This document shows, in pieces, positions 49,125 through 53,097 of a stretch of 53,097 bases of DNA. The stretch spans positions 1 to 53,097 of the forward strand of contig DVNY01000125.1 of the NCBI GenBank assembly GCA_018714085.1, written 5' to 3'. Source of the stretch: Candidatus Caccomonas pullistercoris. GTDB lineage: Bacteria > Bacteroidota > Bacteroidia > Bacteroidales > Bacteroidaceae. How positions within the stretch are numbered: position 1 is the stretch's first letter; each line of letters opens with the position of its first letter. A model generated the notes under the pieces. It made no database searches, was not told the DNA's origin, and saw nothing but the letters and a program-made list of their open reading frames with translations. The translations under genes and the position numbers were made by a program.

Positions 49125-49607
49125 ATGATTTCAGAAAAGTTACAAGATGCAATCAACGGGCAGATATCGCGCGAGCTTTGGTCTGCCAACCTTTATCTGT
49201 CGATGGCTTTCTATTTCGACATGGAGGGTTTTAACGGTTTCGCCAACTGGATGAAGAAGCAGTCGCAAGAAGAAACCGAGCACGCCTACGCGATGGCCGA
49301 CTACCTGATCAAGCGCGGCGGAAAAGCCCGTGTGGGCAAGGTGGACATCGTGCCCGAGGCGTGGAAGTCGCCGCTTGAAGTGTTCGAGCAGGTCTACGAG
49401 CATGAGTGCAAGGTGTCGCGGTGGATCGACGAATTGCTCGACCTCGCCATTGCCGAGGGCGACAAGGCCACGCAAGACTTTCTTTGGACCTTTGTCCGCG
49501 AGCAGGTCGAAGAAGAGGCCACGGCCTCTGGCATCGTCGATCGCATCCGCAAGATGGGCGATACGGCTATCTTCAACCTCGACCAGCAATACGGCGCCCG
49601 CGCCTGA
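49125..49607 (+). CDS. ftnA: Ferritin
   Basis: MISEKLQDAINGQISRELWSANLYLSMAFYFDMEGFNGFANWMKKQSQEETEHAYAM ferroxidase residues. Confidence 0.96.
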   Translation: MISEKLQDAINGQISRELWSANLYLSMAFYFDMEGFNGFANWMKKQSQEETEHAYAMADYLIKRGGKARVGKVDIVPEAWKSPLEVFEQVYEHECKVSRWIDELLDLAIAEGDKATQDFLWTFVREQVEEEATASGIVDRIRKMGDTAIFNLDQQYGARA

Positions 49608-49745: not shown

Positions 49746-50705
49746 TCACGTGGCCTTGACCTCGTCGATGTTCACCAGCTTGTTTACGATGGCGTAGATG
49801 GTCAGTCCCGCCACGGAGCGGATCTGCAGCTTGCGGGCAATGTTCTTGCGGTGCGTCAGCACCGTGTTCAGCGAGATGTAGAGCTGCTCGGCCGTCTCCT
49901 TGTTCGTCATCCCCTTGACCACGCAGGCCACCACTTCGCGTTCCCGCTCGCTGAGCTCCTCGCGCCCGGCCTCGCCTCCGGTGGGGGCTGCGGCGTGCGG
50001 TCCGCCGGGACGGCAGGCCACCTTCCGTTCCAGCAGTTCGACGGCGGGCACGAACAGGAGGTTCTCTACCTCACAATGCGTGAAGAGGTCCTTCTCGCAG
50101 TTGAAGATGTCGAAGAGCACGGCGTTCAGCAGGTTGGCGTCGCCCTGTGGGACGTAGTAGCGGATGATGATATTCTTGAGCTCCTGCAGCTTCTTGTTGA
50201 TGTTCTCATGATTGCGGGCGAACTGTGCGATCTCGTATCCCCCGGTCTTTTCGCCGGCCATCAGTCGGTCGACGTAGGTGAATATCTTCCGGTTCTCAAG
50301 TTCCATGTGCGCGCGTACCTCGTTCATGTAGGCATCATAGAATTTGAGGATCAGCAGGGCCACGTCGTCGCGCTGCGAGCAGTCGAGCGCCTCGAGCAGC
50401 TTGCGGCGTATGGCGGGCAGTTCGAAGCCCAGGAAGTAGTCGTGCGCTTGGCGCAGGTAGGACATCAGCGAGCCCACCGAGACCCTCCCCGCGTGCAGGG
50501 CCACGCCGGGGTCGCCGCTTTTGATGTAGTTGGCCACGACGAGGAACGTGTCGCAGTCCACGCCGGCCTCGTCGCAGACCTCCCTGATCGTCTTTTCGCC
50601 GAAACCCAGCGGGATGCCGAAGCGGCTGAGCATCTGGAGCAGGTGGAACTCGTCGCTGATCACGTCGCTCATCCGGTCCGTCTCTTTGTAGTTGCTTACG
50701 GTCAT
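49746..50705 (-). CDS. Transcriptional regulator: YtfE/ScdA (RIC)-like di-iron domain fused to LuxR-type HTH
   Basis: N-terminal ScdA_N-like segment, HMELE and HCEVE (HxxxE) plus additional His; C-terminal ELSEREREVVACVVKGMTNKETAEQLYISLNTVLTHRKNIARKLQ; likely start MTVSNYKETDRM at 50705. Confidence 0.85.
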   Translation of the reverse strand: MTVSNYKETDRMSDVISDEFHLLQMLSRFGIPLGFGEKTIREVCDEAGVDCDTFLVVANYIKSGDPGVALHAGRVSVGSLMSYLRQAHDYFLGFELPAIRRKLLEALDCSQRDDVALLILKFYDAYMNEVRAHMELENRKIFTYVDRLMAGEKTGGYEIAQFARNHENINKKLQELKNIIIRYYVPQGDANLLNAVLFDIFNCEKDLFTHCEVENLLFVPAVELLERKVACRPGGPHAAAPTGGEAGREELSEREREVVACVVKGMTNKETAEQLYISLNTVLTHRKNIARKLQIRSVAGLTIYAIVNKLVNIDEVKAT

Positions 50706-50763
50706 AGTCTTGCTTTTTTCGGAATGCGCGCAAAGTAAGTCATTTCCCCCTACATGGGCAATC

Positions 50764-50775
50764 CCCACATGTGGG
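50764..50775. promoter_or_regulatory. Candidate operator palindrome CCCACATGTGGG
   Basis: Perfect 12-bp palindrome between divergent regulator and porin genes, with partial copy CTACATGGG at 50750. Confidence 0.5.
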
Positions 50776-50850
50776 TATTCTCCGTCTTGCAGTGTGAGGG
50801 GCATCGCCGCCCCCGCCCGCGGGGCGGCGGAATATCCCCCAAAGGCAGTA

Positions 50851-50881
50851 TTGTGTCTGCTTGAAGATCCCTGTACTTTTG
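50851..50881 (+). promoter_or_regulatory. Putative sigma-ABfr promoter of the porin gene
   Basis: TTG at 50851, 20-nt spacing, TACTTTTG at 50874-50881; ATG at 50906. Confidence 0.6.
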
Positions 50882-50905: not shown

Positions 50906-52204
50906 ATGAAGTTTATCACTAAGACACTAGGCGGCGCCGTGCTCCTCGCCTGTCTCGGCGGAGTTGAGGCCAGCGCCCAAACCCAAGCCGAAGAAACCCG
51001 CGCGACCCGGTCGCGCTTCCAGGTGGGGGGCTATGCGGAGGTAGCCTATACCCGCAATTTTTACAGCGACAATGTATATAAGTATCAGCCGAGCCATGTG
51101 AAGAGCGACCGTAAGAACCATGGGCGGTTCGACATTCCCCACGCCGTGGTTTACCTCTCTTACGATTTCGGCAAGGGATGGAAGATGGGCAGCGAGATCG
51201 AGTTCGAACACGGAGGCTCGGGCGCAGCCTATGAGAAGGAAACCGAAGAAGGGGGCGAGTGGGAACAAGAGACCGAGAAGGGCGGAGAAGTCGAGTTGGA
51301 ACAACTCTGGATCCAGAAGACCTTTTGGCCCGAACTGAACGTCAAGATCGGCCACATCGTGGTGCCCATTGGCCTGACCAATGCCCATCACGAACCGACG
51401 GAATACTTCACCGTCTATCGCCCCGAGGGCGAGGCCACTATCTTTCCCTGCACCTGGCACCAGACGGGCGTCAGCCTTTGGGGACGCCATGGCGCGTGGC
51501 GCTATGAGGCGCAATTCCTTGCGGGGCTCGACGCGCTCCAATTTTCAGCCGCGAACTGGATACAGGGCGGAACAAAGTCGCCCTATGAGTTCGACGTAGC
51601 CAACAAATATGCCGTCGCCGCCCGTGTGGACAATTATTCCGTACCCGGGCTCCGTCTGGGGCTGAGCGCATACTACGGGCACAGTATCAACAACACCTAC
51701 GAGACCATGACGGGTTCGCACTACCAGGTGAAGGGCGCCGTGGCCATCGGCTCGTTCGATTTTCACTACGACGCGCATAACTGGGTGGTTCGTGGCAGTC
51801 TCGATTACGGTCATCTCTCCGACGCCGACCACATCAATGCCATCAACGTCAACCAACCGACGAACTCGCCCAACGCCCGTTCGCACGTTGGCGACCAAGC
51901 TGTGGCCTTCGGCGCGGAGGCGGGCTACGATTTCTTTTCACAAATCAAGAAGCTCCGCGAAAAGGCGCAGCGCATGTACCTCTTCGCCCGCTACGAGTAC
52001 TACGACAGCTACCGTCCAGCCACAGGCGCCACAACCGATTACCCCTACACCGAGAAACACCGCCTGGCGGTCGGCCTGAATTACTATCCCATTCCCGAGG
52101 TCGTCATCAAGGGCGAGTTCTCGCACCGCTTCCTCCACAGCCAATATAACGACGAGCCTTCGGTCTCGCTGGGCGTGGCGTATGCCGGTTTCTTTACAAA
52201 GTGA
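50906..52204 (+). CDS. Outer-membrane beta-barrel (porin-like) protein
   Basis: Signal peptide MKFITKTLGGAVLLACLGGVEASAQ; FQVGGYAEVAYTRNFYSDN; alternating amphipathic strands; C-terminal VAYAGFFTK. Confidence 0.8.
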   Translation: MKFITKTLGGAVLLACLGGVEASAQTQAEETRATRSRFQVGGYAEVAYTRNFYSDNVYKYQPSHVKSDRKNHGRFDIPHAVVYLSYDFGKGWKMGSEIEFEHGGSGAAYEKETEEGGEWEQETEKGGEVELEQLWIQKTFWPELNVKIGHIVVPIGLTNAHHEPTEYFTVYRPEGEATIFPCTWHQTGVSLWGRHGAWRYEAQFLAGLDALQFSAANWIQGGTKSPYEFDVANKYAVAARVDNYSVPGLRLGLSAYYGHSINNTYETMTGSHYQVKGAVAIGSFDFHYDAHNWVVRGSLDYGHLSDADHINAINVNQPTNSPNARSHVGDQAVAFGAEAGYDFFSQIKKLREKAQRMYLFARYEYYDSYRPATGATTDYPYTEKHRLAVGLNYYPIPEVVIKGEFSHRFLHSQYNDEPSVSLGVAYAGFFTK

Positions 52205-52243: not shown

Positions 52244-53078
52244 ATGAACAAAGTATTTAGAACAACTCTCTTCGCCGTTTTTGCGGCAGTGTCGGCTTTT
52301 GGCCTGTCGTCGTGCAGCGATGACGCGGACGGAGGTGGCGAACAGCCCGGGCAACTGACGGCCGACGAGCAGGAAATCAAGACGTTCGCGCAGCAGTACT
52401 TGGACGCCACGCTTTATCCCACCTATCGGATGTTGGCTGACAGTACGGCCATCTTGGCAGACCAGCTGACTGCCATGCGTGACAAGGTGATGGGCGGAGA
52501 AACCGTTACGCAGGATGAGATTGACGCCGCGTGCACTGTATTCCTTCATGCCCGCGCAAACTATGAGACGAGCGAGGCGTTCCTTTTCGGCGCTGCCACG
52601 GATTTCGGAATCGACCCGCATATCGACACGTGGCCTCTTGACCTCGACATGCTCAAAACCGCGCTTTCCAACAGCAGCCAGATCAACGCCATGGCCGGTG
52701 AGAATGGTGATGAGTATGCCGGTGTGAACCTCGGCCCGGCGCTTCTGGGTTTCCACGGCATTGAGTACATCCTCTTCCGTGACGGGCAGAACCGCACGGC
52801 GGCCAGCCTCAACAGCCCCGACCCCGGGCTGAACAACCTGACGGCCCGCGAAGAGCTCATCTATGCCGCCGCCGTCGCCGGCGACCTGCGCAACAAGTGC
52901 TTCCAGATGGAGGTGGCGTGGAATGTCGACGCTCCGGCCGACCACATCGCCAAAGTCGAAGCCCTCGAATGGCCTTACCAGATGACCAACGGCCTGTCGT
53001 ATGGCGAGAACATGATGCTTGCGGGACAGGCGGGCAGCACCTACAACTCATGGCGTCGTGTGAGTGACGCTATCATCC
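52244..53078 (+). CDS. Imelysin family lipoprotein (IrpA/EfeO-like), 3' truncated at contig end
   Basis: Lipobox LSSCSDD; GFHGIEYILF (GxHxxE imelysin motif); ORF is open to the contig end and so is missing from the ORF track. Confidence 0.88.
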
Positions 53079-53097
53079 CTGTCTCTTATACACATCT
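53079..53097. other. Residual Nextera/Tn5 mosaic-end adapter (artefact)
   Basis: CTGTCTCTTATACACATCT is the exact 19-bp Tn5 mosaic end used in Nextera libraries. Confidence 0.97.

Follow-up and report, generated by a model that had tools for sequence, protein, structure and literature searches.

A two-gene operon of the CdhR type is known from Porphyromonas gingivalis (PG1236–PG1237, with CdhR on the PG1237 side) and from Bacteroides thetaiotaomicron (BT0519–BT0520), and a fused protein, PIN17_RS10465 of Prevotella intermedia, has already been reported, without biochemistry (PMC10434189, 2023). According to that study, low iron induces PG1236–PG1237 approximately 7-fold and BT0519–BT0520 16- to 20-fold in these two related species, fldA ranks among the genes most induced in low iron, CdhR regulates hmuYR, iron binding by CdhR is yet to be shown, and knowledge of the regulation is still scarce; no operator motif is given (PMC10434189). 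CdhR has been described as an activator of hmu (PMC10101095). Here we describe a fused regulator gene of Candidatus Caccomonas pullistercoris, a gut-type member of the Bacteroidales (assembly GCA_018714085.1), which is located on the minus strand at positions 49746–50705 of contig DVNY01000125.1, a stretch of 53,097 nucleotides referred to as a whole as the window. The encoded 319-residue protein, of which no published characterization was found in literature searches, is probably a di-iron sensor controlling an iron-starvation regulon and a fusion variant of the CdhR-type regulators of Bacteroidales. A preliminary description of this DNA, made from the sequence alone, had regarded the coupling of a RIC domain to a DNA-binding domain as unknown, and this claim is not supported: the architecture is known, because both the operon and the P. 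intermedia fused form are described in PMC10434189.

Domain composition of the fused regulator

The open reading frame (ORF) begins with the ATG at position 50705 and has its stop at position 49746; its delineation is based on the translation, the Pfam domains and an AlphaFold model. The sensor part (residues 1–231, positions 50013–50705, minus strand), as delimited by conservation, profile and fold match, consists of ScdA_N-like helices (approximately residues 10–75), followed by a hemerythrin/RIC four-helix bundle (residues 77–231), in which residues 99–221 match Pfam Hemerythrin with 31.4 bits (cutoff 25.3). The C terminus is a GerE/LuxR helix-turn-helix (HTH) domain (residues 250–305, positions 49791–49958, minus strand), which matches Pfam GerE with 60 bits (cutoff 23.5) and has an intact recognition helix, whose residues Ser278, Thr281, Val282, His285 and Arg286 are invariant across the protein family. 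This places the protein among the LuxR/NarL-type transcription factors, as proposed in the preliminary description, and the coupling of the hemerythrin/RIC module with the GerE HTH places it among the CdhR-type hemerythrin regulators of Bacteroidales. The phospho-accepting receiver domain of two-component response regulators is absent from the ORF translation and from its Pfam matches. Likely, the fused regulator is a one-component sensor, as was also suggested previously.

All six ligands of the YtfE-type di-iron site are present (His88, His133, Glu137, His166, His210 and Glu214), and the pattern of H, HxxxE, H and HxxxE is located in the segments AHDYF (His88), HMELE (His133 and Glu137), NHENI (His166) and HCEVE (His210 and Glu214). 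Together with the Pfam domains, this pattern supports the earlier proposal that a six-ligand domain resembling RIC is joined to a LuxR-type HTH. Five of the ligands, His88, His133, Glu137, His210 and Glu214, are identical in 97 of 97 homologs, and His166 is kept in 92 of the 97; since this near-total identity is preserved at sequence identities down to approximately 25 to 30%, the conservation of the ligands is far beyond chance. In the alignment with Escherichia coli YtfE (taken from NC_000913.3; ligand numbering as in PMC9268430), His133, Glu137, His166, His210 and Glu214 fall on His129, Glu133, His160, His204 and Glu208 of YtfE, and His88 is one column away from His84.

The AlphaFold model, calculated from 82 sequences, has a predicted local distance difference test (pLDDT) score of 92.5 and a predicted template modeling (pTM) score of 0.72, with a weak linker at residues 239–247. 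When this model is used for a Foldseek search of the Protein Data Bank (PDB), YtfE ranks first, the RIC protein of Staphylococcus aureus matches the sensor part with a TM score of up to 0.76, and the C terminus has matches to LiaR-type HTH domains with 0.84. A sensor-only profile matches S. aureus ScdA over residues 5–220 (E ~2e-11). A single-sequence PDB search with one split sensor gave no match, but the profile search did succeed.

Comparison with the RIC enzymes

When considering the ligand pattern and the predicted fold, the protein has the six-ligand four-helix bundle of the RIC (YtfE/ScdA) proteins. The likeness to ScdA_N that had been noted earlier is found at the level of profile and fold only; Pfam ScdA_N gives no match in the 319-residue protein and matches only 2 of 82 members of the protein family. 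An N-terminal ScdA_N domain with the DfCCgG motif is found in most, not all, bacterial RICs; the corresponding DYCCGG segment of YtfE is replaced by PLGFGE in the alignment. The position of YtfE Glu125 is mostly kept among the homologs, and that of Glu159 is not conserved. The RIC equivalog model TIGR03652 (NCBIfam) scores 50.4 bits, far under its cutoff of 204.7 bits. Judged by these sequence criteria, the fused protein is by definition not a RIC enzyme, because both the Cys-Cys motif and the TIGR03652 cutoff fail. Another residue, Cys44 (window positions ~50574–50576), is invariant in all homologs, whereas neither YtfE nor S. aureus ScdA has a cysteine at the position aligned with it; a redox or ligand role is possible.

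Split and fused forms

A match is present in 143 of 151 genomes of the family. The split homologs of Bacteroides, Phocaeicola and other Bacteroidales families are two adjacent genes, the di-iron sensor gene being first, and the HTH gene is found directly 3' of the sensor gene in all 34 split cases examined; in Phocaeicola vulgatus, the two genes overlap by 4 nucleotides. In the split regulator half, a receiver-like region is present, with asparagine as the usual residue at the phospho-acceptor position, and Pfam Response_reg gives no score for the P. vulgatus split regulator. At the place of this degenerate receiver, a short linker is all that the fused proteins have. We regard the fusion, and the way in which it relates to the split pair, as firmly established, and the observation that receiver-less fused forms occur across many Bacteroidaceae genera is new in this analysis.

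The genus of the window and several other genera have the fused form, others have the split form, and one genome has both. The tree requires five changes between the fused and split states, and a single origin of the fusion is not supported, as one fused clade is rejected by the approximately unbiased (AU) test (p 0.004). The history of the fusion is unsure because of long branches and possible transfer. Two diverged fused regulators are present within one genome (L079/L052 and L080/L053; genomes G188 and G154), and therefore paralogs exist.

A candidate operator at the regulator promoter

The promoter comparison identifies the sequence AATACCCACATGTGGGGATTG (positions 50759–50779, minus strand), an inverted repeat with NarL-like 7-2-7 spacing, as a candidate operator of the regulator gene. 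A related pattern, AATACCCA-N4-TGGKGA, is found upstream of most fused regulators, and AATACCTA-N3-ATRGTGATTG is found at the corresponding place upstream of the split genes. The half-site TACCYA is compatible with TACYYMT, the heptamer of NarL. The window copy has no mismatches to the consensus and is the only such match in the source genome. The segment TTACTTTG (positions 50731–50738, minus strand) is the probable Bacteroidetes-type -7 element of the regulator, as judged from the consensus TAnnTTTG. The operator center lies approximately 35 nucleotides upstream of the center of this element, and thus approximately 43 nucleotides upstream of the inferred transcript start. The conserved NarL-like candidate operator TACCYA-N4-TRGKGA in the regulator's own promoter is new in this analysis.

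The candidate operator at other promoters

A site matrix was trained on regulator promoters only and then applied to other promoters, with 40 shuffles as a control. Promoter-anchored tests were used because the relaxed whole-genome counts in the source genome are not enriched, and zero-mismatch counts before the regulator were dropped because they are circular, the motif having been derived there. In 12 of 15 genomes, the flavodoxin promoter has a site scoring above all shuffles (0/40 as high); the one in L193 is not independent, because the intergenic region is common to the regulator. In genus g36, feoAB sites are found in three of three regulator-positive genomes vs one of six regulator-negative genomes. 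Counts of pattern matches in 32 regulator-positive genomes, summed by hand, are 228 vs 54 for the reversed control.

In the P. vulgatus genome, there are 20 pattern matches vs 4 in the reversed control, and the genes behind the sites (some named by eye) include the regulator pair, flavodoxin, TonB receptors, AhpC, a Cys-rich lactate-utilization-type protein, PflB and the porin orthologue, whose operator-like site is 34 nucleotides upstream of the ORF start. In the source genome, sites precede flavodoxin, FeoAB, NRAMP and a TonB receptor similar to one of the P. vulgatus targets; in a sister species, they precede NRAMP and a C10-type peptidase (names by eye). Across these genomes, the site is present at some feoAB, TonB-receptor, NRAMP, AhpC and porin–imelysin genes, not at all of them, and feoAB was ruled out as a universal target, many of its promoters being without a site.

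Some further sites were also observed. The Cys-rich Fe-S lactate-utilization-type operon of P. vulgatus, which sits right behind the regulator pair, is preceded by two operator-like sites 32 nucleotides apart (L140 and L147). In the sister species, a one-mismatch operator is found 64 nucleotides before the gene of the secreted C10-type cysteine peptidase (L246), and in both this species and the source genome a small protein of winged-helix-like type (74 and 112 residues) has an operator-like site upstream of it (L240 and L247). Identical operator-like sites at two contig edges (G000:C66:108-128 and G000:C83:6560-6580) are perhaps one locus split by the assembly.

Proposed mechanism and alternative explanations

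In the mechanism that we consider probable, the N-terminal RIC-like bundle would hold a di-iron centre and would report the iron and redox status of the cell through the occupancy or the oxidation state of this centre. The sensor domain would take the place of the degenerate receiver and would directly control dimerization of the LuxR-type HTH or its DNA contact. When iron is short, with the centre in the apo or reduced state, the HTH dimer would bind to TACCYA-N4-TRGKGA just upstream of the -33 element and would activate its own gene as well as iron-sparing and uptake genes (flavodoxin, porin–imelysin, TonB receptor, Feo/NRAMP). A di-iron sensor role of the fused protein is likely, and, on comparative evidence, its control of iron genes via the site is a well-motivated proposal. 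What the analysis shows are the fusion, the pattern of ligands, the predicted fold, the relation to the split pair and the presence of a conserved site before these genes. Metal binding, the sensed state, binding of the site by the regulator and the direction of control are what we infer here; for the sensed state and the direction, we draw in addition on the induction in low iron reported in the literature and on the description of CdhR as an hmu activator. Several observations weigh against this mechanism. His166 is replaced by asparagine or glutamine in five fused homologs, many feoAB promoters of regulator-positive genomes are without a site, and eight regulator-negative genomes keep matches (20 vs 6 in the control, summed by hand). 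In the source genome, matches to the looser pattern hardly exceed the control (20 vs 15), the stricter pattern gives 8 vs 2, with palindromes counted twice, and three Fur-family genes are present, which could share the iron response.

It is rather unlikely that the di-iron centre senses nitric oxide (NO), O2 or redox state, not the iron level, the iron-uptake genes then being part of a stress response. RIC and hemerythrin centers do bind NO and O2 (PMC9268430), a hemerythrin domain of Vibrio cholerae controls its cyclase by redox state, as cited in a passage of PMC10101095, AhpC is among the predicted P. vulgatus targets, and the invariant Cys44 could be redox active. Nevertheless, the predicted targets mostly concern iron supply or iron sparing, and iron depletion induces the operon in two species (PMC10434189), such that, among the ligands considered in the preliminary description (NO, O2/redox and iron), the predicted regulon and the published expression data favor iron status. 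It is unlikely, too, that the site belongs to another regulator, of the Fur family or otherwise, with the fused protein being merely one of its targets, although the site precedes the regulator's own gene, as expected under external control, the Fur-family genes are available, and genomes without the regulator have some sites as well. Against this reading, the sequence corresponds to NarL-type half-sites (TACYYM), which is what a GerE HTH should recognize, and not to a Fur box; the recognition helix does not vary within the protein family, and the feoAB site follows the presence of the regulator in genus g36.

It is very unlikely that the domain acts as a RIC enzyme for repair or iron donation, tethered to DNA and without a sensing role: its fold and ligands are of the YtfE/ScdA type, and the protein is the sole hemerythrin-family match in the source genome (86.5% complete), no second hemerythrin domain being found there, but it lacks the Cys-Cys motif, the position of Glu159, which is active in iron donation in YtfE (PMC9268430), is not conserved, and an HTH is constantly paired with the domain or fused to it, which speaks for signaling. 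The same loss of His166 in five homologs, together with the metal binding being a prediction, would fit a metal-free bundle serving for dimerization or protein interaction, which is nonetheless highly improbable, as none of the other five ligands varies among the 97 homologs while the overall identity falls below 30%.

A more general proposal is conceivable, which we put forward only tentatively: a RIC-derived di-iron domain may be the direct intracellular iron sensor of Bacteroidales, commanding the iron-starvation regulon via the NarL-type site, parallel to or instead of Fur, and fusion, more than once on the tree, may have swapped a dead receiver for the sensor.

Neighboring genes

Divergent from the regulator, an outer-membrane porin-like protein is encoded at positions 50906–52204 (plus strand), which by neighborhood comparison is the first gene of a conserved porin–imelysin–di-heme oxidoreductase operon; the intergenic region that holds the window operator also separates the regulator from the start of this operon, with TACTTTTG (positions 50874–50881, plus strand) as a putative -7-like element. 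The porin is the divergent neighbor of the regulator in 11 of 19 fused-type loci examined. The imelysin gene (Peptidase_M75, 85 bits; positions 52244–53078, plus strand) is cut off by the contig end, because an untrimmed adapter is present there: positions 53079–53097 read CTGTCTCTTATACACATCT, which we take to be the Nextera transposon adapter. A ferritin gene (positions 49125–49607) is convergent with the regulator; it was rejected as a linked gene, since the other loci examined have none close to the regulator.

Comparison with known systems

Little is understood of how Bacteroidales sense iron when the host exerts nutritional immunity. With conserved di-iron ligands, related split and fused forms and a concrete candidate operator, the system allows a direct test, with one protein, one DNA site and one metal; if the proposal is true, hemerythrin-like domains gain a role as a direct bacterial transcription factor.

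The window protein, from a different genus, has the same two modules in the same order as the CdhR operon, including fused PIN17_RS10465; the literature searched gave no operator or regulon motif for this operon. The RIC family (E. coli YtfE and S. aureus ScdA) shares the two-domain N-terminal fold and the H/HxxxE/H/HxxxE ligands, whereas the window protein is without the Cys-Cys motif and a conserved Glu159 position, scores below the TIGR03652 cutoff and carries an HTH. A hemerythrin-type domain is also the input module of the V. cholerae Bhr-DGC VC1216, of P. gingivalis PG_0686 and of eukaryotic FBXL5, but the output of these proteins is a cyclase or a ubiquitin ligase and not DNA binding, and a RIC-type bundle with an ScdA_N-like segment is not described for them. 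The DNA-binding domain and the 7-2-7 type inverted-repeat site are common to the window protein and the NarL/FixJ (GerE) response regulators, from which it differs in having no receiver and a RIC-like bundle as its input.
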